From the IMG/VR virus record IMGVR_UViG_3300049794_000013, positions 1-42,805 of that record: a stretch of 42,805 bases of DNA. One strand, given 5' to 3'. This stretch comes from a virus. The notes beneath the pieces are model-generated. The model saw only the letters and a program-made list of their open reading frames with translations. It was not told the origin of the DNA and did not search any database. Below are positions 3,936 to 16,189 of the stretch, in pieces. Position 1 is the first letter of the stretch; the number at the start of each line of letters is the position of its first letter. The position numbers and the translations under genes are program-made.

Positions 3936-4802
3936 ATGGATGTTACACACGCGACACGGGCACGTGCGCCCTTCCCGTACTACGGGGGCAAACAGTATCT
4001 CGTGCCGCTGCTGCTCTCACTGTTGCCGCCGCATGACACCTACGTGGAGGTGTTCGGCGGGGCTGGCTCGCTGCTGTTTTCCAAGCCGGCCGCGGCCGTG
4101 GAAGTCTACAACGACCTCGACAGCGCGCTTGTGACGTTCTTCCGCGTGCTGCGCAACCCACGGCAAGCGGCACGGCTGCGCACGCTGTTGGACCTGACAC
4201 CCTACAGCCGGGAAGAGTTGGCGGCATGCCGCGCGTGGGACACGGCGACGTCACCGACAGAACGGGCGCGGCGCTGGTTTATCTGTTTGCAGCAGAGCTT
4301 TGCCGGCCGCGTAGACGCCGGCGCGGGCTGGCGCTTCACGAAGCTGCCAAGTCATAACCCCGCGCAGAGCTACCGCGGAAGTATTGCGCGCCTACCAGCA
4401 TTCACCGCGCGGCTGGCGCATGTGCTGGTGGAGCATCAGGACTTCGCGCGCGTCCTGCGGCTCTATGACACGCCGGCGACGCTGTTCTACTGTGACCCAC
4501 CCTACCTGCCAGAGACGCGGGCCAGCCACGGTTATCCTTGTGACATGACGCTGGAGGACCATACACGACTACTGGACCTTGTGCGCGGCCTGCGCGGCAT
4601 GGTGATGCTCTCCGGCTACCGCTCGGCACTCTACGATGGGGCGCTCGCGGGCTGGCACCGCGTGGACAAGCGCACGCTGAACATGGCAGCGAATACCAGG
4701 CGGGACGCGCGGATGGAGTGCATCTGGCTCAGTCCCAATGCCACGGCGCATCAGCCGCAGCTGCCCTTCGGTGACGACCAGGAAGCAGGCGAGTCAGCAT
4801 GA
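3936..4802 (+). CDS. dam: DNA adenine-N6 methyltransferase, Dam/D12 class
   Basis: The 288-aa protein carries the class-alpha order of motifs: PYYGGK at residues 14-19, the S-adenosylmethionine motif VEVFGGAG at 37-44, and the catalytic DPPY at 187-190. Length and order match Dam-type D12 enzymes, which methylate the N6 of adenine in short sites such as GATC; the actual site cannot be read. ATG 3936 gives a normal N-terminus, while the longer frame from 3903 overlaps the nuclease gene. Phage enzymes of this kind protect the genome from host restriction. Confidence 0.9.
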   Translation: MDVTHATRARAPFPYYGGKQYLVPLLLSLLPPHDTYVEVFGGAGSLLFSKPAAAVEVYNDLDSALVTFFRVLRNPRQAARLRTLLDLTPYSREELAACRAWDTATSPTERARRWFICLQQSFAGRVDAGAGWRFTKLPSHNPAQSYRGSIARLPAFTARLAHVLVEHQDFARVLRLYDTPATLFYCDPPYLPETRASHGYPCDMTLEDHTRLLDLVRGLRGMVMLSGYRSALYDGALAGWHRVDKRTLNMAANTRRDARMECIWLSPNATAHQPQLPFGDDQEAGESA

Positions 4803-5011
4803 ACAGCGTAATTACACAAGAGACGGCCAACTGCCGAGCGGGGACGCACACCATCCGTGTGGGGCGCTGCCGCAACTGGGAGGAGCCGTGGCCGCTGGAC
4901 GGCTGGTACTTGTGCCTGGTGTGCCAGCGGTCGGTGTTCCTGCGCCACGGCTGGGTGCGCGAGCTGTACCCGCCACGAAAGCGACCGCCGACAGCAGCGG
5001 CGACAGGCTAG
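4799..5011 (+). CDS. Hypothetical protein (70 aa), last gene of the first early operon
   Basis: Its ATG overlaps the methylase stop. The product has cysteines at NCRAG, GRCRN and LCLVCQRS, a possible but irregular metal site, and ends in a basic Pro/Ala tail. It converges on a minus-strand gene with only 3 nt between stops, so it ends the first rightward block. No family is recognised. Confidence 0.5.
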   Translation: MNSVITQETANCRAGTHTIRVGRCRNWEEPWPLDGWYLCLVCQRSVFLRHGWVRELYPPRKRPPTAAATG

Positions 5012-5014
5012 CGG

Positions 5015-5191
5015 CTACGGGCGGCGCCGGCCTTCGCTTGGCTTCTCAGACAGCGGTATCTCTAGCAGGCGAAGTAAGGCACGTACGCAGGCTTCAGTAT
5101 CCGGCTCATAGTGTCTGATGATCTCGGGTTCGTTTGTCACGGGCGTCCGCTTCAGCTTCGGCGTCTTAGGCTGCTTAGGGGTGCGTGTCAT
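5015..5191 (-). CDS. Small basic protein downstream of the regulator (58 aa)
   Basis: On the minus strand ATG 5191 overlaps the stop of the upstream regulator (ATGA) and has GGAAGGAAG just upstream. The product is basic in its first half (TRTPKQPKTPKLKR) and has an acidic middle followed by a leucine-rich helix (CVRALLRLLEIPL). It is too short for ordinary length cut-offs, but start context and coupling support it. It could be a partner or modulator of the regulator; that is inference. Confidence 0.6.
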   Translation of the reverse strand: MTRTPKQPKTPKLKRTPVTNEPEIIRHYEPDTEACVRALLRLLEIPLSEKPSEGRRRP

Positions 5192-5364
5192 ATGCGCTTC
5201 CTTCCTTCACGTAGCAAGCGCTCGACATCGGCGCGGCGAAAATACAGGCGCTTCTGCTTGCGCTGCATGGGATTGCGTTCGGGAACGAGTTCGCCGGCTT
5301 CCATCATTTTGTAGAGCGTCGAGCGGCTGATTTTCAGCAGCGCTAGTGCCTGTTGCGTCGTCAT
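5188..5364 (-). CDS. MerR/excisionase-like helix-turn-helix protein (58 aa)
   Basis: The protein is a single winged-helix unit: MTTQQALALLKISRSTLYKM followed by EAGELVPER and a wing with RLYFRRADVERLL, the usual HTH_17/excisionase pattern. I choose ATG 5364, 7 nt after GGGAGGG; an ATG at 5388 would add eight residues without a good site. It is transcribed away from the 5570 operon by overlapping divergent promoters, so it may repress one or both, or act as recombination directionality factor. A related protein lies at 40833-41048. Confidence 0.78.
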   Translation of the reverse strand: MTTQQALALLKISRSTLYKMMEAGELVPERNPMQRKQKRLYFRRADVERLLREGRKRI

Positions 5365-5406
5365 CAAGTCGCCCTCCCGTTCCGCCATTCTTCAATGCTC
5401 ACCTTC

Positions 5407-5435
5407 AGTATACACACGTCACACATACTTGACAA
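5407..5435 (-). promoter_or_regulatory. Sigma70-like promoter for the 5364 regulator
   Basis: Read on the minus strand, TTGTCA (5435-5430) and TATACT (5412-5407) are separated by 17 nt. The start codon at 5364 lies 42 nt beyond the -10. The -35 overlaps the -35 of the opposite promoter by five bases, so the two face away from each other. Confidence 0.6.
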
Positions 5436-5456
5436 GCCGGGCGTGCCAAGTATACA
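5429..5456 (+). promoter_or_regulatory. Sigma70-like promoter for the 5570 operon, with repeated AGTATACAC boxes
   Basis: TTGACA at 5429-5434 and TATACA at 5451-5456 have a 16-nt spacer. Both this -10 and the opposite one sit inside related boxes, AGTATACACACGTCACAC from 5407 and AGTATACACTACACACGTG from 5449, which look like paired operators. A third AGTATACACA lies at 173-182, before the first early operon. Confidence 0.6.
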
Positions 5457-5569
5457 CTACACACGTGACACACGTAGTTCACGCCGGACGATGAAAGGCG
5501 GTGCAACACTCACGAATAGCGAACCTTGGAACAGTGAAACGACCACAAAGAAACGAGCAAGAGAAGACG

Positions 5570-6235
5570 ATGGTTGCAGTACAACAAGAGCCTCAAGAGC
5601 CGGGAAAGAAGAGGACCACTTACCTCAAGAACCTGCTCGGTTGGGCGGAAGAGTACGTAAAGAACCGCAAGCGGTTGAGTTATCGTGGCTTCGGCAATAA
5701 GCAGCGCCAGAGCGTTCAGGGCTTCCTGAATGAATTGACGCTTGTAGGAATTCCCCGGCCTGCGCCGCGCGTCGTGTGGGAAATGTACAAAGCAGACCAC
5801 GATCATGTCATCAGCAAGTTCGTTGGTGACAAGGTAGATGAAGTGCGTGACGAGCAAGCGTTCGCTCAGTTCAAGCTCATGCTGAAGACGACGTATATCG
5901 AGGCAGAAATCAACGGGGCGCCGATGGACGTACGCGAGTACGAATACCTTGGCGACGCCATGGAAAACCCGCTGAAGATGCTTCTAGCAGCAGAGACGCC
6001 AGAAGACTTTCTCACTGAGCAAGCAAAGTATGAATTGAAGCTCGATGAGTTGTGCAAAGCGCGCGATGGGCTAGATGAGCACATCGCCTATATGCAAGTC
6101 TGTGGCATAGCTGCCGCGCATCACATCAAGCCCATGATGCGCCTGGAGACTGGCCGCTACTCGTTGGATACGCGCGGCGTGTTGGCGCTTTCTGCACCGG
6201 AAGAGGAAGGGGCCGACAATGACGAGCAAGAGTAA
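5570..6235 (+). CDS. Hypothetical early protein (221 aa)
   Basis: ATG 5570 is preceded by a GAGAAG-type ribosome site; the frame from 5501 lacks one. The protein is charged and mostly helical, with a basic N-terminal third (PGKKRTTYLKNLLGW, KNRKRLSYRG) that could contact nucleic acid, and an acidic C-terminal tail. It ends inside the start of the next gene (17-nt overlap). It is first in the operon behind the divergent promoter, so it is probably expressed early. No family is recognised. Confidence 0.68.
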   Translation: MVAVQQEPQEPGKKRTTYLKNLLGWAEEYVKNRKRLSYRGFGNKQRQSVQGFLNELTLVGIPRPAPRVVWEMYKADHDHVISKFVGDKVDEVRDEQAFAQFKLMLKTTYIEAEINGAPMDVREYEYLGDAMENPLKMLLAAETPEDFLTEQAKYELKLDELCKARDGLDEHIAYMQVCGIAAAHHIKPMMRLETGRYSLDTRGVLALSAPEEEGADNDEQE

Positions 6236-7208
6236 CGACCTCGTAGCGCTCGACGGCGCTCTCGATACTTCTGATGAATCGGTGACGCCGCTCGACTATA
6301 CCGAGATACATGACACTGCGTTGCGTCACGCATTAGAGCACGACGAGCAAGAGGCGCTGACCCACCGTCAGAAAGCCGCTGAGCATGTAGTAGCATTCGC
6401 CCGTGCTATTGCCGACGCGCACAGCCGGCTTACCGGGCCGGTAGGCCAGCATCATGCGTCCCGCGGGACGCATGATGGCAACGATACCTTCGAGCGCTGG
6501 GCCAAGCGGCTCAATATGGGGCGGCGTACGGCGGAGCGCTGGGTAAAGGTTGCCGAGCAGGCGGCTGAATACCTAACACTTGCCCCCAAGCTTCACACGG
6601 ACATGATAGACAACGTGTCCGGACTGGCGCTCTTGCTGGGTGCGGGGCCAGTAGTGCAAGAGACAGTGCTCGCAAATGGTACCCGCACTCGCAAAGAAAT
6701 CGAGCATCTGATCGAGCAGGCGCAGCGCACCCAGGATGAGAACGAACACTTACGCGCTGAGATTGCTTCCACGCGTGAAAGCCTTACTGCAAGCGAGCAC
6801 GCAGTGCAGCTTGTGGAAGAGATGTGGGACAAGCAGCGCGCCTATCTGCGCTCTGAGGTCGCGGCAGAAGCCGAACAGCAGTACAGCGAGACGATAGCCG
6901 AACTGAAGCACGCGCTTCTTGTCGCGCAGCGCAAAGTGACTGGCCTTGAAGAACGCTGGCGCATAGCGCGCGACCAGCTTACTCAGCGCGCGCGCTACGA
7001 CACCCTGGCGACCGACATGGCGCGCACGATGGACCGCTGGAAGGGTGAGCTTCCCGAACCGAGCGACGCCGGCTACCTCACTGAGTTTGAAAGCAAACTC
7101 ACGAATCGTGTAATGGAGCGCTGCAATTCGCTGCGTGACCACTTAGCCAAGTTGCAGGATAGTCTTTCCGTTGTGGAAGGCACCATCCAGCAAATCGAAG
7201 GGCGCTAG
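6219..7208 (+). CDS. DUF3102-like protein with a long coiled coil (329 aa)
   Basis: Residues about 45-120 hold a helical region with an Asn-Asp-Thr-Phe-Glu-Arg-Trp element and LNMGRRTAERWVKVAEQ, which resembles DUF3102, a phage/plasmid domain that looks like a DNA-binding helix-turn-helix. From about 145 to 260 the sequence is heptad-rich (EIEHLIEQAQ, VTGLEERWRI), predicting a coiled coil. The gene overlaps its upstream neighbour by 17 nt. It may be a replication or partition accessory; the exact role is unknown. Confidence 0.7.
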   Translation: MTSKSNDLVALDGALDTSDESVTPLDYTEIHDTALRHALEHDEQEALTHRQKAAEHVVAFARAIADAHSRLTGPVGQHHASRGTHDGNDTFERWAKRLNMGRRTAERWVKVAEQAAEYLTLAPKLHTDMIDNVSGLALLLGAGPVVQETVLANGTRTRKEIEHLIEQAQRTQDENEHLRAEIASTRESLTASEHAVQLVEEMWDKQRAYLRSEVAAEAEQQYSETIAELKHALLVAQRKVTGLEERWRIARDQLTQRARYDTLATDMARTMDRWKGELPEPSDAGYLTEFESKLTNRVMERCNSLRDHLAKLQDSLSVVEGTIQQIEGR

Positions 7209-7233
7209 CTCTCTAGCACAGGCGGCAAGCAGT

Positions 7234-7479
7234 ATGAACAGGCGTGAACGCGTCTTGCGCATGTTGTTTGCCGCCGGCGAGCGGCCCATCACCGCGCGGG
7301 AACTCGCCTGGCAGACCGGCGTACGCGTCTCTGGCGTGCGGCATGTGCTGCGCATCCTAGAGCGGCAAGGGCAGGCAGAGTGCCTGCATAGCGTGACGAT
7401 AGATAGATGCCTGCGATGGCGTTGGAAGGATAGGCAGGGCCATGAAATGGCTACGGCTGTACTCAAGTGTCCTGCATGA
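7234..7479 (+). CDS. Small winged-helix DNA-binding protein (81 aa)
   Basis: RVLRMLFAAGERPITARELA, then TGVRVSGVRHVLRILERQG, is the standard winged-helix pattern seen in MarR/BlaI-like or phage replication-loader N-terminal domains. I place the start at ATG 7234 because the longer frame begins inside the previous gene. It overlaps the next gene by 38 nt, so the pair is likely co-translated. It may regulate or assist the neighbouring replication protein. Confidence 0.65.
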   Translation: MNRRERVLRMLFAAGERPITARELAWQTGVRVSGVRHVLRILERQGQAECLHSVTIDRCLRWRWKDRQGHEMATAVLKCPA

Positions 7480-8335
7480 CCCCAAGGTGCAGATGTTGCC
7501 GCCGGCTCTGTTCAAGGGCTGGGTGAATCTGTTGTGCCTCGCCAACGAAAGCGAGCCACGCGGCGTGCTTCCTGACACGGAAACGATTGCGTGGGCGCTG
7601 CACATGACAGCCGAAGAAGCTGTAACGTTACTGGAAACGTTACAGGCAACTGGCTTAATTGATACATGCGACGATGGATTGTCGCCCCACAACTGGAATG
7701 GACGCCAAGCGCCGAGTGACGATGTGAACACACGTGTCTCGCAGTGGCGCGCACAAAAGCGGAATACGCCTAGCCCCACGCCGACGCCCAAACGACGTAA
7801 CGTTACACGTAACAAAAACGTAACGGCGCCAGAGGAGAAGAGAAGAGATATAGAGGAGAAGAGAGAAACGCGCGTGCGCGCGCGAGACTCTTTTTCGTCA
7901 CAAAACAAAGAAGTTACACAAGCAGAGGCGGACCCAGAGGCCGAACGCAGCGCCGATGTCGCTATCTTTACCGCGTGGTGTAGTGCTACCGGACGTGACG
8001 TGAAGATGTTCAGCGAGCGTCGTACATGGATGGGCAAGATACACGAACTGCGCATCAGTGAAGGATTGTCCCCACCCGGTGTGCCGCCACTCATCGCCCA
8101 GTATCGTGCCAAGTTTGGCAACGACAAGAACCCTAGCCCCGGCCAAGTCGTTGGCGTCTACTCCCAGTTAGGACCGATGCTCAATGGAACCTATCCAAGC
8201 GGTGCTACGCCAGCCAGAAAAGCTGCCCATAGCGCCGCTACCGCTGAAGAAAAAGAAGCCGCCAGTCGAGCCGCGTATCTCGCAAAAACCGCCGTGGTAC
8301 GTGAATTCGCGGGGGGCAACCTACCCACGGGATAG
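7442..8335 (+). CDS. Replication initiator/DnaD-like primosomal protein (297 aa)
   Basis: The N-terminal 85 residues (MKWLRLYSSVLHDPKVQMLP, then a winged-helix with GLIDT...NW) match the N-terminal domain of phage replication O/DnaD-type proteins, which bind the origin. A long basic, low-complexity linker rich in Arg/Glu (EEKRRDIEEKRETRVRARD) follows, then a compact helical C-terminal domain. The ATG has AGGCAGGG upstream. The linker region is A-rich DNA and could hold the origin, as in lambda O, but no clear iteron set is visible. Confidence 0.68.
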   Translation: MKWLRLYSSVLHDPKVQMLPPALFKGWVNLLCLANESEPRGVLPDTETIAWALHMTAEEAVTLLETLQATGLIDTCDDGLSPHNWNGRQAPSDDVNTRVSQWRAQKRNTPSPTPTPKRRNVTRNKNVTAPEEKRRDIEEKRETRVRARDSFSSQNKEVTQAEADPEAERSADVAIFTAWCSATGRDVKMFSERRTWMGKIHELRISEGLSPPGVPPLIAQYRAKFGNDKNPSPGQVVGVYSQLGPMLNGTYPSGATPARKAAHSAATAEEKEAASRAAYLAKTAVVREFAGGNLPTG

Positions 8336-8750: not shown

Positions 8751-8948
8751 ATGAGTATGCAGGTGCATGTCATTTTGCTGGCTATAAATAGTGCCTTTAC
8801 CTTGGGACTCGCTGCTGAGTGGCGCTGGATGCGTGACGACCTGCCGCGCTGGAATGTGCGGCTGATCGTCGGTATGATTGTCGTCAACATCGGCGTTATC
8901 GCGCTCAATGCCGTCTATCTTGGCGCGTTGGCGCTCGGGCACACGTAA
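8751..8948 (+). CDS. Small membrane protein with two predicted helices (65 aa)
   Basis: GGGAAGGA precedes ATG 8751. Two hydrophobic segments, about residues 6-22 (VILLAINSAFTLGLA) and 37-60 (LIVGMIVVNIGVIALNAVYLG), flank a short charged loop (RWMRDDLPRW). It ends the replication block, just ahead of the packaging-operon promoter. Holin-like or superinfection functions are possible, but nothing in the sequence decides. Confidence 0.6.
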   Translation: MSMQVHVILLAINSAFTLGLAAEWRWMRDDLPRWNVRLIVGMIVVNIGVIALNAVYLGALALGHT

Positions 8949-8970
8949 CCGCCGCGCCGCAGGAGTGATG

Positions 8971-8996
8971 TGCTACAGTACTGTTACGTCAAGTAG
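8971..8996 (+). promoter_or_regulatory. Promoter/operator module of the packaging operon
   Basis: TGCTACAGT (8971-8979) is an extended -10-like element followed by GTTACGTCAAGTAG (8983-8996). The whole module aligns with TGGTATAGT...GTTATGGTCAAGTAG before the portal gene (14422-14446). A perfect 10-bp palindrome, ACAGTACTGT, covers 8975-8984. No -35 hexamer is evident, which suggests an extended -10 promoter or one using an activator. Confidence 0.6.
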
Positions 8997-9027
8997 ACGC
9001 CGTACGCGATGCATGAGGATACGACAC

Positions 9028-9708
9028 ATGTTTACGACTGAGGACGTGGCGCTAGCGCACTTACAGCCGCACCCACGCAACTATCGCGCACACCCCGACG
9101 ACGAGATATCCCATCTCATGGAGTCCATCCAAGCCAACGGGGTGTACCGCAACGTGGTGGTGGCACAGGATGGGCGCACGATCCTCGCCGGACATGGCGT
9201 CGTAGAGGCAGCGTCACGCCTCGGTCTAGAGACGCTGCCCGTCTACCGCGTTGAGTACGGCAAGGACGACCCACGAGCGCTCAAGCTGCTCGTCTCGGAC
9301 AACGAGATTAGCCATCTAGCCGAAGTGGATGATCGTGCGCTCACTGAACTCTTGCGCGAGCTACAAGCGGGTGAAGCAGAGCTCCTGGGCACGGGCTACG
9401 ACGAGGCGATGCTGGCCAACCTGCTATTTGTGACACGACCGGCAAGCGAGATACGCGACCTGGACGCCGCCGCGCAGTGGGTGGGGATGCCGGACTATGA
9501 CGAGGGACCGGGGCGTATCCAGCTCCTACTCAATTTCATGAGTGAAGAGGACCGCGCTGAATGCTGTGGCCTCCTAGGCGTTGACGCGACTGCGGTGGCG
9601 AACGCGAAGACAGGGCGTGGGTGGTCCGTCCGCTGGCCCGTCCGTCCGTATGATGATTCGCGCGCCCTCGCGTTTACCGCCGGGGAAGGGGATGATGATG
9701 ATGAGTAA
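9028..9708 (+). CDS. ParB-like nuclease/CTPase-domain protein (226 aa)
   Basis: The N-terminal half has the ParB/Srx order: LQPHPRNYRAHPDDEI, a helix ending SIQANG, VVVAQDGRTILAGHG, and AASRLGLETLPV. The GHG version with downstream DNEI is typical of stand-alone phage ParB proteins found near methylases or modification genes, rather than chromosome-partition ParB. ATG 9028 follows GAGG at 9015-9018. The stop overlaps the repeated ATGATGATGATG start of the glycosyltransferase, so the pair is translationally coupled. A link to DNA modification or packaging is inferred from context. Confidence 0.8.
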   Translation: MFTTEDVALAHLQPHPRNYRAHPDDEISHLMESIQANGVYRNVVVAQDGRTILAGHGVVEAASRLGLETLPVYRVEYGKDDPRALKLLVSDNEISHLAEVDDRALTELLRELQAGEAELLGTGYDEAMLANLLFVTRPASEIRDLDAAAQWVGMPDYDEGPGRIQLLLNFMSEEDRAECCGLLGVDATAVANAKTGRGWSVRWPVRPYDDSRALAFTAGEGDDDDE

Positions 9709-10624
9709 GCGCGTCCTACCGCGTTACCCTATCTACATCCCCTCGAAGGGGCGCGCCGACTGCTGCTTTACCGCGCGCTGCCTCGCGGACGGCGGTGTCC
9801 CGTTCTCGCTCGTGGTAGAGCCACACGAGGCGGACGCCTATGCGGCGCGGTTCGGGAGTGAGCGTCTCCTCGTGCTCCCCTTTCGGGATCGGGGGAACGT
9901 TATCCCGGCGCGTAACTGGATCCTGGAGCATGCGCAAGCGAGCGGAGCCGTACGGCATTGGACGTTGGATGACAATATCCGCCATTTCGGGCGCCGCTAC
10001 CGTGCTAAGCGGCTATATTGTGAGCCTGGGATCGCGTTGCGGGTCTGCGAGGACTTTACCGATCGCTATGAGAATATCGCGATTAGCGGACTGAACTACT
10101 ACATGTTCGTGCCCGACCACGAGCGCATTCTACCGGTCCAAGTCAACTGCCACGTCTACTCGTGCATGCTCATACGCAACGACCTACCGTACCGCTGGCG
10201 TGGGTACTACAACGAAGATACGGACCTGTGCCTACAGGTGCTCGCGGGCGGCTGGTGTACTGTCCTGCTGAATACGTTCCTGGCCCAGAAGCTTAAGACG
10301 ATGGTAGTGAAGGGTGGGAATACCGCCGCGCTCTACCAAGGCGATGGCCGCCTACGCATGGCGCGCTCACTTGAGCGGATGTGGCCGGGTGTGGTAACGA
10401 CCGAAAGGCGCTTTCAGCGCCCACAGCACGTCATCAAGGATAGTTGGAAACAGTTCGATACGCCGCTGAAGCTGAAGCCTGGCATGTCGCTGGAGCAGCT
10501 TGCAGCGCTGCCGGTAGACGAGTATGGGATGGCGCTCATGCAAGTGGGTGAACAGATCAAGAGTCCGCACATCCGCGCGCTACTTACCGACTGGCAGCAG
10601 ACGCACACAGGTGAGGCATCCTAA
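9701..10624 (+). CDS. GT-A fold glycosyltransferase of the TET-associated (TAGT) type, possible DNA-modifying enzyme
   Basis: The protein opens with YPIYIPSKGRAD, followed by a Rossmann-like half and HWTLDDN with D90-D91-N92 as the predicted metal/nucleotide-sugar motif; NEDTD at 171-175 resembles the acceptor-side motif. This layout fits TAGT-type phage glycosyltransferases, which are associated with sugar addition to oxidised pyrimidines in DNA. Four in-frame ATGs (9692, 9695, 9698, 9701) lie behind GGAAGGG, so the exact start is uncertain. No TET/JBP or hydroxymethylating enzyme is visible here, so the substrate is open. Confidence 0.72.
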   Translation: MSKRVLPRYPIYIPSKGRADCCFTARCLADGGVPFSLVVEPHEADAYAARFGSERLLVLPFRDRGNVIPARNWILEHAQASGAVRHWTLDDNIRHFGRRYRAKRLYCEPGIALRVCEDFTDRYENIAISGLNYYMFVPDHERILPVQVNCHVYSCMLIRNDLPYRWRGYYNEDTDLCLQVLAGGWCTVLLNTFLAQKLKTMVVKGGNTAALYQGDGRLRMARSLERMWPGVVTTERRFQRPQHVIKDSWKQFDTPLKLKPGMSLEQLAALPVDEYGMALMQVGEQIKSPHIRALLTDWQQTHTGEAS

Positions 10625-11076
10625 TGGCGCAACGCGGGCGGAAACTCAAGCTTACAGAAGAAGTCGAGAAGAAGCTGCATGATGCGCTCGACATGGGCTT
10701 GTCTTACAAGCATGCGGCGCAGTACGCCGGGATTGGCGAATCTACTTTCTGGCGCTACATGGCAGAAAAGAAAGAATTTCAAGAGTCTATCCATGCGCGA
10801 GAAAGCCGTGCGGCGCTGATGCTTATGGCCCTCATCCAGAAAGCGGCGCAAGATGATTGGCGCGCCGCTGCGTGGAAGCTCGAACATCGCTGGCCGGATG
10901 ACTATGCTAAGAACCGTATCGAGGTTGAGCATAGCGGGGCGATTAAGATGCACCTGGCACTAGAGCAGCTTCAGAGCGCGCTTGATGAGGTATTCGGGCA
11001 GGATACCGCTGCTAAACGCGCTTTTACGGCGAAGATGGCCGCCAGAGAAGCAGCACGCGTAGCGGGGGTGAACTAG
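10624..11076 (+). CDS. terS: Terminase small subunit (DNA-recognition protein)
   Basis: A 150-aa protein with an N-terminal helix-turn-helix (YKHAAQYAGIGESTFWRYM) followed by helical sequence with AALMLMALIQKAAQDDWRAA. This is common in small terminase subunits that recognise pac or cos and recruit the large subunit. Its ATG shares a base with the previous stop (TAATG), and the large-subunit ATPase gene starts 1 nt after its stop. Position is as informative as sequence. Confidence 0.8.
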   Translation: MAQRGRKLKLTEEVEKKLHDALDMGLSYKHAAQYAGIGESTFWRYMAEKKEFQESIHARESRAALMLMALIQKAAQDDWRAAAWKLEHRWPDDYAKNRIEVEHSGAIKMHLALEQLQSALDEVFGQDTAAKRAFTAKMAAREAARVAGVN

Positions 11077-11077
11077 C

Positions 11078-11869
11078 GTGGACACTGTCGGTATCTGGAG
11101 TGAATTGCACCACAAGAACGACCGCGTGGCCTTCGCCCGCCGTGCCGGCTTTGACCCGGAAGAGTGGCAAGCGCGCGTGCTGCACAGCGAGTCGCCGCGT
11201 ATCCTGCTCAACTGCTCACGTCAAAGCGGCAAGAGTAGCACGGTGGCCGTGCTGGCGTGCCACACGGCGCTCTACGTGCCCAACAGCACCACGCTGATCG
11301 TGAGCTATGCGCTACGCCAGAGCGTCGAGTTGTTTCGCAAGGTGGTGAGTCGTGGCACAGTCGTCTCCTACATGCCCACGATGGTTCTGGGTGCCACACA
11401 AACGAGTTTCGAGTTTGACAATGGCTCGCGCGTGGTGGCGCTTCCAGGCTCTGAAGCCTCCATACGCTCATTCAGCAACGTGCACACGCTGTTATTCGAT
11501 GAGGCGTCGCATGTGCCGAATGAGACATATGAGGCGGCGCGCCCCGTGGTAGCGGCCACCGGTGGCGGGCGTATCATCGCCCTGTCGACGCCGTACGGCA
11601 CTCGTGGCTGGTGGTACGAGGCCTGGCGCGATGAGACGAGCGAGGCCGAGCCGTGGGAACGCTACCGCGTGAAGGCGTGGGAATGCCCGCACATCAAGCC
11701 CGAGTTTCTGGCACATGAGAAGCGCCGCATGGGCAATTGGTGGTTCGACCAGGAATACGGCACGGAATTCCGCGATGCGCAGGATGCGGTATTCCGCCAG
11801 GAAGACATTGACCGCATGTTCAGCGAAGACTACGACACGTGGGACTTGGGGGGAGGCGACAACGCATGA
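11078..11869 (+). CDS. terL: Terminase large subunit, ATPase half (separate gene)
   Basis: GTG 11078 starts a 263-aa protein with Walker A CSRQSGKS (residues 46-53), Walker B LLFDEA (Asp141-Glu142) and the coupling motif ALSTPYGTRGWW. These are the motor motifs of a large terminase. The chain stops at residue 263 without the RNase-H nuclease domain that normally follows; that domain is in the gene at 12619-13392, with three small genes between. Its TGA overlaps the next ATG. The gene shows no frameshift scar, so the split looks stable. Confidence 0.92.
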   Translation: MDTVGIWSELHHKNDRVAFARRAGFDPEEWQARVLHSESPRILLNCSRQSGKSSTVAVLACHTALYVPNSTTLIVSYALRQSVELFRKVVSRGTVVSYMPTMVLGATQTSFEFDNGSRVVALPGSEASIRSFSNVHTLLFDEASHVPNETYEAARPVVAATGGGRIIALSTPYGTRGWWYEAWRDETSEAEPWERYRVKAWECPHIKPEFLAHEKRRMGNWWFDQEYGTEFRDAQDAVFRQEDIDRMFSEDYDTWDLGGGDNA

Positions 11870-12099
11870 GCGCGACGTATACATGGCCGTACCTGCCGTA
11901 CGCCGCAACCGCTGCACCAGAGATAGGGCGCTATCAACTCTTCGAGTCTGCCGGCGGCGCGCTGTATCGGATTGACACGGTTGAGGGGGACACCTGGCGT
12001 TGGGGCGGCAAGATGTGGCGCATGCTGGAGGAAGAGCCAACAGATGAGCCAACAGATGAGCCAACAGATGAGCCAACGGAAGGGGAGCCGGACGCATGA
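11866..12099 (+). CDS. Hypothetical protein with a PTDE repeat tail (77 aa)
   Basis: ATG 11866 overlaps the terminase ATPase stop. The first 50 residues look like a small beta-rich domain (YQLFESAGGALYRIDTVEGD, then RWGGKMWRML); the rest is an acidic tail of four near-identical EPTD units encoded by a perfect 12-nt repeat. It lies between the two halves of the terminase, so it may be a packaging-complex partner. No family is recognised. Confidence 0.6.
   Translation: MSATYTWPYLPYAATAAPEIGRYQLFESAGGALYRIDTVEGDTWRWGGKMWRMLEEEPTDEPTDEPTDEPTEGEPDA
12034..12081 (+). repeat. 12-nt tandem repeat, four copies, in a coding tail
   Basis: GAGCCAACAGAT is repeated exactly at 12034, 12046 and 12058, with a fourth copy, GAGCCAACGGAA, at 12070. 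It encodes E-P-T-D in frame. Copy number could change by slippage without breaking the frame. Confidence 0.9.
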
Positions 12100-12362
12100 G
12101 CAAGCCGATTGTGTTTCATACTGGCCCGTGGACGGTGGGCGATTTGCTTATGGCCATGCGGATTGAACGCAACGATCAGGACATTGAGGCGCTCGTTACG
12201 TTGCTCGTCTCACGGTCGGATGCGTCAGCAGAGACCATTTTAGCGCTGCCCATGTCTGAACTGGAAACGCTGGTGAAGCAGATGGCCGAGACGCTGCACA
12301 CAGCGGGCGTGATGGATGGGCTGGCGCGTTCCTGGCGCCGTCGTGAAGGGGCACCACAGTGA
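12096..12362 (+). CDS. Hypothetical protein between terminase halves (88 aa)
   Basis: It overlaps the preceding stop by 4 nt and its own TGA overlaps the following GTG. The product is mostly helical: GDLLMAMRIERNDQDIEALVTLL, then ETILALPMSELETLVKQMAE, with a basic C-terminus (SWRRREG). No family is recognised. Its helical, charged make-up resembles small assembly chaperones, but this is weak. Confidence 0.6.
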   Translation: MSKPIVFHTGPWTVGDLLMAMRIERNDQDIEALVTLLVSRSDASAETILALPMSELETLVKQMAETLHTAGVMDGLARSWRRREGAPQ

Positions 12363-12622
12363 GAGGCTTCAAAGGCTATAGAGACAACCCGCCAGAGTCC
12401 TATGCTGCGGTTGATGCCGGTCTCACGAACCTGGGAGACCTGCCAGACTATGAGGGGGTCATTTTTGAGGATGGCACGGTTGCGGTACGCTGGCTAACGA
12501 CCTTCCGTTCACATGTCATCTGGCCCAACTATGACACGTTCTATGCCGTCCACGGCCATCCCGAGTACGGCACGCGCATCGAGTGGTTCACGCTCGTGCC
12601 AGAAGTGAGTAGCGAGCCATGA
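12359..12622 (+). CDS. Hypothetical protein between terminase halves (87 aa, GTG start)
   Basis: The GTG start overlaps the upstream stop (GTGA) and the stop overlaps the nuclease ATG. The protein is rich in aromatic residues and beta-like sequence (DYEGVIFEDGTVAVRWLTTF, then WPNYDTFYAVHGHPEYG). It may be a small structural or binding domain; no match is recognised. The strict chain of overlaps from 11866 to 12619 suggests stoichiometric co-translation with both terminase halves. Confidence 0.6.
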   Translation: MRGFKGYRDNPPESYAAVDAGLTNLGDLPDYEGVIFEDGTVAVRWLTTFRSHVIWPNYDTFYAVHGHPEYGTRIEWFTLVPEVSSEP

Positions 12623-13392
12623 GCACCAGTGACCCCACGTCCATCCGTGACCTGCTAGGCCGTGTGCGGGCCGTACATATCGGCGTCGACCTGGGCCAGA
12701 CGGTCGACTTCAGCGCAATAGCCGTGGTGGAAGTGGGCGAGCGACCGTCAGATCGCATGTATAAAGACTGGCGCACGGGCAAGATGGTCCCGGTACCCGA
12801 AGCCACCTACCGCGTGCAGCGTCTACAGCGGCTAGACCTGGGGACGGCCTGGGTGCTGATTGCCGCGCGAGTCGTGGACGTGGTGGCGAGTCTATGGGAC
12901 TGGGAAAAGAAGCTACGCACGGCCGGTGCGTTACTCCCCAACGGTCCACAACTGCCATGGGATATCTGGGCCGATGCGACGGGCGTAGGCAAGCCGATCA
13001 TGGAACTCATCGCCAACGGGTTGGAAGCCGAGCCACGCACACGGCGGGCACGGCTACACCCCGTGAAGTTCTACCACGGCGACGAATTTAGGCGCGGACA
13101 ACTGGACGACGGCACGACGGACGCGCTGGGCAAAGCCTATCTCGTCTCGCGGTTGCAATCGTTGGCGCAAGCGGAACCGCCGCTGCTTAGGTTGCCGCCA
13201 CGTGACCCGGAAGCGCAGACGATGATGCAAGAGCTGAAGGACTACAGGATCAAAGTTGACACCGATGCCAATGATCGGTATGGGGCCTTCAGCACGGGCG
13301 CACACGACGACCTGGTGACGGCGCTGGGCCTAGCATGCATCGAGGAGCCGGGGTACTACAGCGTGGAGAGTGGGCCGAATCTGTGGCCGTAG
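12619..13392 (+). CDS. Terminase large subunit, nuclease half (separate gene)
   Basis: The 257-aa protein has the RNase-H-fold pattern of terminase nucleases: VHIGVDLGQTVDFSAIAVVE with Asp24, IWADATGVGKP with Asp119, and GAHDDLVTALGLA with Asp230-Asp231. These acidic residues would hold the two metals that cut DNA during packaging. The protein lacks Walker motifs, which are on the gene at 11078. The two products must work together, either by non-covalent contact or via the small proteins between them. Start and stop are clean. Confidence 0.9.
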   Translation: MSTSDPTSIRDLLGRVRAVHIGVDLGQTVDFSAIAVVEVGERPSDRMYKDWRTGKMVPVPEATYRVQRLQRLDLGTAWVLIAARVVDVVASLWDWEKKLRTAGALLPNGPQLPWDIWADATGVGKPIMELIANGLEAEPRTRRARLHPVKFYHGDEFRRGQLDDGTTDALGKAYLVSRLQSLAQAEPPLLRLPPRDPEAQTMMQELKDYRIKVDTDANDRYGAFSTGAHDDLVTALGLACIEEPGYYSVESGPNLWP

Positions 13393-13409
13393 TGAGAAAG
13401 GGAACGACG

Positions 13410-13667
13410 ATGATTTTCGACATGGGCAAGCTGCCTGATCGCAACCAGTACCGCACACAGGTCCAGTGTGACGGCCAAAGTGGCGGCTGCACGCAGCGCT
13501 ACAACATCGACATGGACATGTGGTTTATCGAGCATGACTTTCTCAATCACAACGGCGCCGATCCGCGCCCGGACCAGGTGCAGGCGTTTCTTACGGGCGC
13601 GAAGTGGATGACGGTGACGGGTAACGATGGGATCGTGCGGCACTATTGCCCGGAGCACACGCCATGA
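13410..13667 (+). CDS. Small cysteine-containing hypothetical protein (85 aa)
   Basis: GAAAGGGA lies just before ATG 13410. Cysteines at VQCDGQSGGCTQ and a late HYCPEH give a possible C-C-C-H metal site. Acidic and aromatic residues dominate between them (DMDMWFIEHDFL). It is first in a run of four small overlapping genes between terminase and portal. Function unknown. Confidence 0.58.
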   Translation: MIFDMGKLPDRNQYRTQVQCDGQSGGCTQRYNIDMDMWFIEHDFLNHNGADPRPDQVQAFLTGAKWMTVTGNDGIVRHYCPEHTP

Positions 13668-13936
13668 GCGACGAATACTTGGACTGCCCAGCAGAGCACA
13701 TGACATTCGAGTTAGACGATACGTTGGTGAGTCGTGGCTATGCCAAGGCGCCCGGCGCGGCGGACTTGTGGATGCGCTGTCAAGACTGTGGCACGTGGGC
13801 GATTCTGCGCTACCACCCGGACTACCCGCTGGACGGGCTGCATGAGCGCATGCGTGAGCTGGCCCCTGGCCGGCATGCGTCGCAATTCGAGGCGTTAGTG
13901 CGGGGCATCCGCGCACGGGAAGGACAAACGACATGA
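13664..13936 (+). CDS. Small CxxC protein (90 aa)
   Basis: ATG 13664 overlaps the previous stop. The N-terminus carries a CPAEH-like Cys/His element and the middle RCQDCGTW, so a zinc-ribbon-like site is possible. The C-terminal third is a charged helix (HERMRELAPGRHASQFEALV). No family is recognised. Confidence 0.55.
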   Translation: MSDEYLDCPAEHMTFELDDTLVSRGYAKAPGAADLWMRCQDCGTWAILRYHPDYPLDGLHERMRELAPGRHASQFEALVRGIRAREGQTT

Positions 13937-14202
13937 CACGCCTCACACGCATCGTCTGCGACAACCCGGACTGCAAGGCGCAGGTAGAGATGTTCGCTGG
14001 CGAGTACTTCATGCACTATCAGGGTATGGAAGATACGCCAGTTGGCTGGTATCGCCTGACGTACTACGAGCCGAAAGCAGTAGACGCTACGGTGGCAGTG
14101 CTGAATCCGCACGAACCGCGCTATTTCTGCTCGGTGGCCTGCGTGCGTGAGTTCACCGGCCATGCGAAAGAGCCGCAGACGCGCGAAGGGAACACCCGAT
14201 GA
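13933..14202 (+). CDS. Small zinc-binding protein (89 aa)
   Basis: IVCDNPDCKAQV near the N-terminus and FCSVACVREF near residue 74 form the C-x4-C...C-x3-C arrangement of a treble-clef zinc site, close in look to FPG/MYM-type fingers. Between them is a strand-rich stretch. It overlaps its neighbours by 4 nt on both sides. Target unknown. Confidence 0.6.
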   Translation: MTRLTRIVCDNPDCKAQVEMFAGEYFMHYQGMEDTPVGWYRLTYYEPKAVDATVAVLNPHEPRYFCSVACVREFTGHAKEPQTREGNTR

Positions 14203-14402
14203 GCGATGATGAGGATATCCCCATCCCCGTGACCGCCGAAGAGTGGCGAGACGCCTACTGGCGCCACGTGCCGATGTACCAGGCGGAGAACGCGGAGTTA
14301 CGGAAGCACTTAGCGGAACTCTACGCACGCGAGTGGGGAGCGCCTGAGCACAGCGGTCCAGGTGAGTATCGTTGGCCGCCGCCCGATGCGGAAAAGCCAT
14401 AA
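14199..14402 (+). CDS. Hypothetical acidic protein (67 aa)
   Basis: The protein begins with an acidic stretch (MSDDEDIPIPVTAEEW), then a helical part with QAENAELRKHLAELYAREW that could form a short coiled coil, and ends in a Pro-rich tail. It overlaps the upstream gene and is the last gene before the portal promoter and leader. No family is recognised. Confidence 0.5.
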   Translation: MSDDEDIPIPVTAEEWRDAYWRHVPMYQAENAELRKHLAELYAREWGAPEHSGPGEYRWPPPDAEKP

Positions 14403-14421
14403 CCCATACGCCGCGCGCTTG

Positions 14422-14446
14422 TGGTATAGTTGTTATGGTCAAGTAG
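14422..14446 (+). promoter_or_regulatory. Promoter/operator module of the structural operon
   Basis: TGGTATAGT at 14422-14430 is an extended -10 (TGn-TATAGT). It is followed at 14432-14446 by GTTATGGTCAAGTAG, which would cover the start of transcription. The module matches 8971-8996 in order and spacing, and its 15-bp box recurs with one change in the lysis promoter. No good -35 lies 17 nt upstream. Confidence 0.65.
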
Positions 14447-14450
14447 CCAG

Positions 14451-14538
14451 AGACCTTGGCCTCCACTTCTAGACCGGGCAACCAAGGGTCTAGGGGCGTG
14501 TCAAGCACCCTCTGGCCCTTCGGGGCACCTTCCCCTAG
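14451..14538 (+). ncRNA. Structured 5' leader with mutually exclusive hairpins before the portal gene
   Basis: The roughly 140-nt untranslated leader can form hairpin A (AGACCTTGG 14451-14459 with CCAAGGGTCT 14482-14491, one bulge), hairpin B (CTAGACC 14469-14475 with GGTCTAG 14487-14493, 11-nt loop) or hairpin C (CTAGGGG 14490-14496 with CCCCTAG 14532-14538). All three use bases 14487-14493 or part of them, so only one forms at a time. Inside C lies GCCC-UUCG-GGGC at 14515-14526, a classic tetraloop hairpin. No U-tract follows. The layout resembles an attenuator or ligand-sensing switch controlling late translation. Confidence 0.6.
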
Positions 14539-14578
14539 CCGTTCGCATCACACCGGCCACAAGCGAGTACCGTAACCG

Positions 14579-16189
14579 ATGCCCTTGCCGTTGCCGACGC
14601 AAACGCTGTACGAGACCCAGCACAAGTACTGGGGCGACGAAGCCGACTATGCGCAGATGGACCCCGCGCAGGCGATGGCGCTGCAAGACAAGGCGTACCA
14701 CGGCAACTTCAAGAAGCCGCTGAAGCGCACGACGGACAGCGAACCCGACCACAATGTCTTGGACAACCGCTGCGAGCCGATTGTCAGCACGGGCATCGAC
14801 TTCCTGTACGGCGACGAGCTGACGTGGGAAGTGCTCGAGGACGACGGCGAGACGCCCGACGAGGCGGCACAAGAGCATCTCGACGCGGTATGGGACGCCA
14901 ACGTCAAGATGCCGTTACTGGCTGAGTATGAAATTACCAGCGCGAACTTTGGGCATGGCTTCTGCAAGCTGGACCCCGACGATGCCGACATGCCGGCGGC
15001 GCCTAACGGCACGCCGATCCCCGCTATCCTCGTGCTCAACCCCATGCAGATGTCCGTCACGACGGCGCCGGCGAACATTCGCAAGGTGCAGCGCTATAGC
15101 TTCGCCTATCAGGACGTGGACCCGGTATCGGGCGCGATTGCGGACTTCCGGCAACTCACCGAGCGCGACCTCGATATGAACGGGCAGCCGGTATCCGGTT
15201 GGCGCGTCGTGGATCAGATCAAGCGCACGAGTGGCACGGGTAATGACACCATCGCGGCGGTGCTCTCACTGCTGACCCCGAAGACGCAGGCGGAAGAGGA
15301 TCGCCAGTGGGAGACGGTGAGCAGCGAGCAGTGGCCGTATGCGTGGGCGCCGATCCACGACGCGAAGAACATGGCCGAACCCAATAGCTACTGGGGCAAG
15401 GCAGACTTACGGCTCGATTTGATTCATCTCAATGATGTGCTGAATTTCCTGCTGTCGAATCGGCAGCGCATCCTGTACTACCACGGGCATCCGCAGGACT
15501 GGGGCTTCGGCTTCCATGCGCGTGACATCGACGTGTCCCCCGGCGGCATGCCGTGCATTCCCAACATCAATGCCAAAGTGCAGCATATCGAGATGACGGG
15601 CGACCTGGCGGCGCTGAACCTGGCGATTGAAGACGTGCGCGAGAGCATGGACGAACTGTCGCATGTGCCGGCGCTCGCGATTGGGCGGCTGAAGAACTTG
15701 CCGGGCGTGCCGTCGGGTGTCGGCATGAAGGTGGCGTGCCGTCCGCTGATAGCGCAGACACAGCAGAAGCGCGTCATTCGCACGGCCATGTTCATCAAGT
15801 TAAATCAACATATCCTAGAGTTGGGGGGATTCGGTGCCGACCGCAAAATCCAGCTCCACTGGTCCGATATGCTGCCGACCGACGACCTACAATCCGCGCA
15901 AGAGGCGCAGATTTGGGTGTCCGCGCTGGGTGTGTCACAAGATAGCGCGATGCAGCGTATGTCCCCCCCGTTTGACCCAGACGTGGAGCGGCAGAAGAAG
16001 CAGGACGAGCAAGCGGCGGCACTGAAGCAGCAACAGGCGACGCTGCAAATGCAGGCGGCATTCGCCCCACCGGATACGGCGCCCGGTCAGTCTACAGGTC
16101 AAGCGAGTGACAGCCCCTCGTCCAGCCCGAAGGCCGGCCAGGCGCCCTCAACTGCGTCTAAGGCGAAAGCGAAGAAGCCGGTAAAGTGA
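14579..16189 (+). CDS. Portal protein
   Basis: The 536-aa length, position after the terminase, and internal sequence (DNRCEPIVSTGIDFLYGD near residue 65, acidic EDDGETPDEAAQ, long helical middle) fit a siphovirus portal, the dodecameric ring at the DNA-entry vertex. The C-terminal 80 residues are Gln/Ala-rich (QQQATLQMQ), then Ser/Pro/Lys-rich, as in many portals. The ATG has no clear Shine-Dalgarno, so the leader structure may control access. It is the first gene of the long late operon. Confidence 0.85.
   Translation: MPLPLPTQTLYETQHKYWGDEADYAQMDPAQAMALQDKAYHGNFKKPLKRTTDSEPDHNVLDNRCEPIVSTGIDFLYGDELTWEVLEDDGETPDEAAQEHLDAVWDANVKMPLLAEYEITSANFGHGFCKLDPDDADMPAAPNGTPIPAILVLNPMQMSVTTAPANIRKVQRYSFAYQDVDPVSGAIADFRQLTERDLDMNGQPVSGWRVVDQIKRTSGTGNDTIAAVLSLLTPKTQAEEDRQWETVSSEQWPYAWAPIHDAKNMAEPNSYWGKADLRLDLIHLNDVLNFLLSNRQRILYYHGHPQDWGFGFHARDIDVSPGGMPCIPNINAKVQHIEMTGDLAALNLAIEDVRESMDELSHVPALAIGRLKNLPGVPSGVGMKVACRPLIAQTQQKRVIRTAMFIKLNQHILELGGFGADRKIQLHWSDMLPTDDLQSAQEAQIWVSALGVSQDSAMQRMSPPFDPDVERQKKQDEQAAALKQQQATLQMQAAFAPPDTAPGQSTGQASDSPSSSPKAGQAPSTASKAKAKKPVK

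Follow-up and report, generated by a model that had tools for sequence, protein, structure and literature searches.

A phage large terminase encoded as separate ATPase and nuclease genes with three small genes between them

Terminases assemble as a ring on the portal, where the ATPase translocates DNA and the nuclease cuts it. In the usual description, pump and cutter are parts of the same chain, and the large terminases of T4 (gp17), P74-26, G20c and Sf6 are each a single two-domain protein. The fused large terminases (TerLs) of the Thermus phage Riverbug (417 aa) and the Meiothermus phage MMP17 (415 aa) are one polypeptide with contiguous domains. A comparative study describes the association of an RNase-H nuclease domain with the large subunit as a universal feature of tailed phages (PMC7824862). 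Two other reports describe terL genes split by introns, in Lelliottia phage phD2B (PMC4246154) and in the Jug phages (PMC12393476). In the open-licence literature we searched, Parabacteroides phage phiPDS1 was the only case of a split at the domain boundary; the report on this phage remarks on the split, and its authors raise a codon-table or assembly issue (PMC10773633).

We analysed a 42,805-nucleotide stretch of viral DNA (IMG/VR record IMGVR_UViG_3300049794_000013, positions 1 to 42,805), referred to below as the window. At 11078-13392, the motor and the nuclease of the large terminase are encoded by two genes and not, as in a canonical TerL, in one polypeptide. Five ORFs run in one direction, with the ATPase first, three small genes next and the nuclease last. 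Each of the four junctions is an ATGA or GTGA with a 4-nt overlap. Judged from these overlaps alone, the five products might be made in balance, as the preliminary description proposed. The ORF listing agrees with the preliminary description of this locus in its ORFs, sizes and overlaps: both terminase frames are complete, each with its own start and stop, and the three intervening genes encode 77, 88 and 87 aa. In all five genes, the annotated frame has a better codon score than any of the five alternative frames. The terminase lies within a tailed-phage gene set that includes TerS, a portal protein and a major head protein (phrog_212, 4.3e-30), and the window also encodes scaffold-like, major tail and tape-measure proteins. 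The features of the locus are as follows.

10624..11076, + strand: TerS, the small terminase subunit, directly upstream of the ATPase gene (phrog_4102 terminase small subunit, E 5.1e-25)
11078..11869, + strand: terminase large subunit ATPase (motor), 263 aa, GTG start (Pfam, PHROGs, AlphaFold, Foldseek)
11822..11866, + strand: C-terminal tail of the ATPase, last 15 residues, candidate docking peptide (position equivalent to the ends of split relatives)
11866..12099, + strand: small gene 1, 77 aa, with an acidic PTDE repeat (ORF and 4-nt overlap)
12096..12362, + strand: small gene 2, 88 aa, an orphan (ORF and overlap)
12359..12622, + strand: small gene 3, 87 aa, GTG start (phrog_21173, 3.5e-8; phrog_7499, 7e-8)
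12619..13392, + strand: terminase large subunit nuclease, 257 aa, RNase-H fold (phrog_27743, 1.1e-18; AlphaFold; alignment to fused TerL)
13410..14402, + strand: four small genes before the portal gene, at 13410-13667, 13664-13936, 13933-14202 and 14199-14402, several of which contain Cys (ORFs, overlaps)
14579..16189, + strand: portal protein (Pfam SPP1_portal above cut-off; phrog_64, 1.4e-15)

By motifs and structure prediction, the first of the five genes encodes a complete motor domain like that of T4 gp17. Two Pfam families, Terminase_3 and Terminase_6N, match it above cut-off, and phrog_7579 does so at 4.6e-52. The Walker motifs are confined to this gene, as initially described. Walker A (SRQSGKS), Walker B (LLFDEA) and an STP motif occur only here, and the ATPase motifs are conserved across 23 aligned split ATPases. 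The AlphaFold model (pLDDT 89.1) has a terminase-type P-loop fold, and its nearest Foldseek matches are the P74-26 and T4 gp17 ATPase domains (7ks4, 4znk, 2o0j). The product is about 42-43% identical to the fused TerLs of Riverbug and of the Meiothermus phages MMP7 and MMP17. When aligned with the Riverbug and MMP17 proteins, the gene ends in the interdomain linker.

Alignment and modelling likewise show that the last of the five genes encodes a complete RNase-H nuclease of the terminase type, catalytic residues included. Its product aligns with the C-terminal half of the Riverbug TerL at 30% identity (E 2e-7 in a single comparison), and, in comparison with the Riverbug and MMP17 TerLs, the gene starts about 20 residues before the first catalytic aspartate. 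The RNase-H acidic residues D24, D119 and D230/D231 are kept in this gene, where the preliminary description had located them, and the fused Thermus and Meiothermus TerLs carry the same catalytic aspartates. D24, D119 and D231 are invariant in 23 aligned split nucleases. Among 136 ORFs aligned to the nuclease profile, with gaps and paralogues counted within the 136, an aspartate occupies the D24 position in 125, D119 in 125 and D231 in 126. Searched singly against Pfam, the nuclease gene matched no family; 14 of the 23 aligned family members matched Terminase_6C at E up to 0.1, and all 23 matched phrog_27743. The AlphaFold model has a pLDDT of 85.8. With Foldseek, the HSV pUL15 nuclease ranked first at only E 2e-3, ahead of unrelated RNase-H-like chains, and a second pass with VIA-align placed terminase nucleases at the top (G20c TerL nuclease 5m1f: Z 16.2, rmsd 2.6, 158 aligned).

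The window thus shares both the ATPase fold and the RNase-H nuclease fold with the T4, P74-26, G20c and Sf6 large terminases. PHROG 7579 (239 positions) matches the ATPase half and PHROG 27743 (233 positions) the nuclease half. PHROG 27743 is listed as being of unknown function, so the nuclease half is not named in PHROGs. We searched 50,697 phage records by tblastn with the window nuclease and with a split nuclease from Rhizobium. Neither search gave a convincing match, so the split nuclease appears to be absent from those records at that sensitivity. The two terminase genes of phiPDS1 (MN929097) lie about 90 bp apart; the first did not align with the window ATPase, and the second gave a sub-threshold T7-type RNase-H match. 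The phiPDS1 terminase is apparently of another type than that of the window. We found no description of the window's split-terminase lineage in the open-licence literature searched.

We surveyed relatives of the locus in two collections. IMG/VR scans with single window proteins returned nothing; an alignment that included fused Thermus and Meiothermus TerLs was needed, and a contig scan with the window ATPase aligned to two of these TerLs yielded 74 loci. A genome contig scan with 23 ATPases yielded 125 relatives, of which we kept the best 80. We classified 155 loci, the window included. Separate ORFs for the ATPase and a downstream nuclease are present in 97 of them, and in 85 the two genes abut, the nuclease lying no more than 130 nt from the ATPase stop. 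The halves lie further apart in 12 loci, the window among them, a number inflated by L148 (broken ATPase frame), L133 (a stretch of N) and L096 (whose first nuclease copy is incomplete). A long ORF was taken as fused in 51 loci; this call rests on ORF length, only 16 loci match the nuclease profile as one ORF, and some of the ORFs counted as fused may contain a different nuclease type. One locus runs off its contig, and in six a short ATPase was found but no downstream nuclease. Of these six, L150 and L155 gave no nuclease match in the genome searched, and L023 has its nuclease at the distant end of its contig. By record title, the relatives come from Acidobacteriota, Alpha- and Gammaproteobacteria, Planctomycetota, Chloroflexi, Thermoleophilia, Salinibacteraceae and methanogens, among others. 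Because the same two-gene arrangement recurs in relatives, it is not a product of chance. Searches for a single TerL of 400-500 aa can misjudge phages with a split terminase.

L023 and L162 lie on the same 53 kb viral contig, where the nuclease is at the opposite end from the ATPase on the same strand. We found no terminal repeat on this contig; were its two ends connected, the halves would be about 3.2 kb apart, with an HNH gene and a papain-like protease gene between them. In L163, from the same Euryarchaeota MAG as L108, the nuclease match lies on another contig stretch of the MAG and contains an in-frame TAG, possibly reflecting pyrrolysine use or a broken gene.

We examined the history of the split with a tree of the ATPases. 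The window groups with one Chloroflexi locus and a set of viral contigs, all of them split. Identity to the window ATPase reaches 53-54% in this group, and both window halves have their nearest kin there. Close relatives with a fused large subunit, which the preliminary description had named as counter-evidence, were not found; the nearest relatives are split and fused forms lie further out. Across the tree, split and fused states are strongly clustered but interleave rather than forming one division. At least 4 changes between the states are forced by starred branches, and the fewest that fit are 7 in 149 rows, a tentative count from a tree that leaves out L053, L055, L062, L065, L066, L078, L148 and L159. 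An AU test on 39 rows rejected a single split/fused division (p 1.6e-5), with rows that were hand-picked representatives and a grouping that was set after the first tree had been seen. The direction of a switch could be read in one case only. L160 encodes a fused ATPase-nuclease (5920-7302) nested in an otherwise split acidobacterial group, and its nuclease part matches the split nuclease profile at 1.5e-42; it is likely a re-fusion. Long planctomycete ORFs did not match the split nuclease profile at 1e-3, and these may join the same ATPase type to another nuclease type.

The model that we consider very probable is that this phage packages DNA with TerS and a two-polypeptide large terminase whose parts are docked non-covalently, and that the small genes are later cargo. 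The large terminase would be made as two polypeptides separated at the interdomain linker. ATPase and nuclease would associate on the portal into a motor that is ordinary in other respects, the ATPase ring would translocate DNA, and the docked nuclease, perhaps held by the C-terminal tail of the ATPase, would make the initiating and terminating cuts. The lineage would have split its terminase first and acquired the three small genes afterwards. With a natural two-protein terminase, one can ask directly whether translocation and cleavage can be coupled without a covalent link. The number of nucleases on the ring and the means by which they are docked there become accessible questions too.

Alternatively, the three small genes could encode additional subunits that connect the separate motor and nuclease or regulate them. 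The preliminary description had offered a motor complex with extra subunits as one of its two readings. The genes sit exactly between the halves, the 4-nt overlaps at all four junctions mean that they are probably co-translated, and codon use favours their frames. Small genes 1 and 3 score 0.041 and 0.051, barely above the 95% point of null ORFs (0.023; maximum 0.245), so their coding status also leans on the overlaps and, for small gene 3, on homologues. Small gene 1 contains a perfect 12-bp tandem repeat at 12034-12077 that gives the acidic PTDE repeat near the protein end. Against the extra-subunit reading, none of the three proteins has a homologue in the other 154 loci (phmmer, E 1e-3), and the halves abut in 85 of the 97 split loci. 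A conserved association of the small genes with split terminases was thus not found. The gene-sized inserts elsewhere are different genes: a phosphoribosyltransferase-like gene in L024, a PD-(D/E)XK gene in L124, HNH and papain-like protease genes after the ATPase in L023, and unnamed ORFs in L049, L062 and L065.

Homologues of the small proteins were sought more widely. Small proteins 1 and 2 had none in the 50,697 phage records at E up to 1, scans of IMG/VR with small proteins 2 and 3 found none, and the Pfam matches of small protein 2 are weak and sub-threshold. Small protein 3 belongs to a small phage protein family of Mycobacterium and Streptomyces phages (phrog_21173, phrog_7499), and tblastn retrieved actinophage proteins (best E 4e-4). 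Its kin lie about 0.9 kb upstream of terS in Catdawg, among tRNA genes in LilMartin and among unnamed genes in VWB, and in none of these three records between terminase genes. In the window, the nuclease is followed by another four small genes, which have no homologue in the relatives' loci; small genes are thus common all along this operon. Orphan small proteins evolve fast, so a subunit role peculiar to the window phage keeps a small probability, but we consider the extra-subunit reading improbable. Because the small genes lack homologues in the other loci and other inserts are unrelated to them, they are likely accessory cargo rather than motor subunits. The most likely account is that this cargo sits at an insertion-tolerant junction and stays in the operon through its 4-nt overlaps. 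The junction looks more like a landing place for cargo than like a five-part machine.

Other explanations fare worse. A programmed frameshift could join slightly overlapping frames in the relatives, with the window as a derived exception, and many abutting pairs do overlap by a few to 15 nt. The candidate nuclease starts, however, fall at -12, -9, -6, -3, 0, +4 and +10 relative to the ATPase stop, which indicates that there is no fixed shift site, and frameshift joining is impossible across the three small genes of the window. We regard this explanation as highly unlikely. A self-splicing intron, with or without a homing endonuclease, could restore a full-length TerL after splicing. Precedents are published for phD2B and the Jug phages, whose TerL coding sequences, like that of the window, occupy more than one ORF and whose splits are explained by introns and homing endonucleases. 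The window showed no sign of either: Rfam gave no match in the whole window at gathering thresholds or in 10600-14600 at E up to 5, and no endonuclease was found in the insert with Pfam or PHROGs. The ATPase and nuclease ORFs also have their own starts and stops and overlap their neighbours, and the genes abut in 85 relatives. We rejected the intron reading, which retains scarcely any probability. Breakage of one TerL gene by a frameshift or chimera on this single metagenomic contig was also rejected and is next to impossible, since independent contigs and isolate genomes are split at the same linker and the roughly 750 bp of coding-like sequence between the halves, with three genes, cannot come from a frameshift.

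These results bear on the earlier suggestion of an ancient intron or insertion event. The split is indeed old and the arrangement is a fixed one; the nearest relatives are all split, so it is older than the small genes. It also exists without them, so their insertion did not cause it, and the absence of an Rfam intron match speaks against the intron part of that suggestion.

We compared the ends of split ATPases with the corresponding zones of fused forms. Split ATPases often end in an acidic-V-x-P/A-L/W peptide that is by and large absent from fused forms. A regular expression for this tail matched 69 of the 102 ends of non-fused ATPases, compared with 2 of 52 linker zones in long ORFs and an average of 15.2 of 102 in shuffles, although it was written after viewing the sequences and related sequences are not independent. 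The window tail fails this expression. It resembles a WDL variant with six extra residues and occupies the position of the WDL or EVEPLF ends of split relatives. Within the ATPase model, confidence is lowest in this tail (58 and 54 for the last two pLDDT blocks). From sequence patterns, we suggest that the tail might be a docking peptide for the nuclease, a possibility that we put somewhat short of even.

Additional nuclease copies were found in several relatives. More than one ORF matched the nuclease profile in 13 of the 114 loci with any profile match, and L016, L129 and L141 look like one nuclease gene in two pieces. Six loci (L021, L084, L086, L087, L088 and L092) have one copy with all aspartates and at least one altered paralogue, in which D24 is replaced by E, K or S, D119 by N, or D231 by E. 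In L083, L096, L157 and L161, the second copies are unaltered at the readable catalytic positions. L086, L088 and L092 also have a nuclease copy upstream of the ATPase, and L088 has up to five copies around one ATPase. If the nuclease is freed from the motor, it could duplicate into active and altered copies, be moved or be re-fused, and one active copy with several altered ones would make a mixed cutting ring. We tentatively propose, as a view that is more doubtful than probable, a large and mostly uncultured lineage of phages and phage-like islands with a detachable docked nuclease, a mixed cutting ring and the tail as docking peptide.

Split terminases also occur in isolates, in Lysobacter sedimenti (L166), Rhizobium phaseoli ATCC 14482 (L167) and Nitrobacter sp. 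Nb-311A (L168). Each lies in a short island that also contains integrase-like and primase genes, with a tRNA gene nearby. Scans of 10 chosen proteins from these islands found no portal, capsid or tail protein and one weak scaffold match. The islands may be phage satellites that lack a capsid but carry a terminase of their own.

In the window, two genes precede TerS (8878-9708 and 9581-10624). One is of the TET-associated glycosyltransferase type (Pfam TAGT, 2.3e-45), and the other has relatives beside four split-terminase loci. The pair hints at hypermodified DNA. Finally, L062 and L065 contain very long ATPase ORFs of 1054 aa (4582-7746) and 836 aa (4441-6951). Both carry what we read by eye as intein-like insertions, and the insertion in L065 lies inside the Walker A motif.
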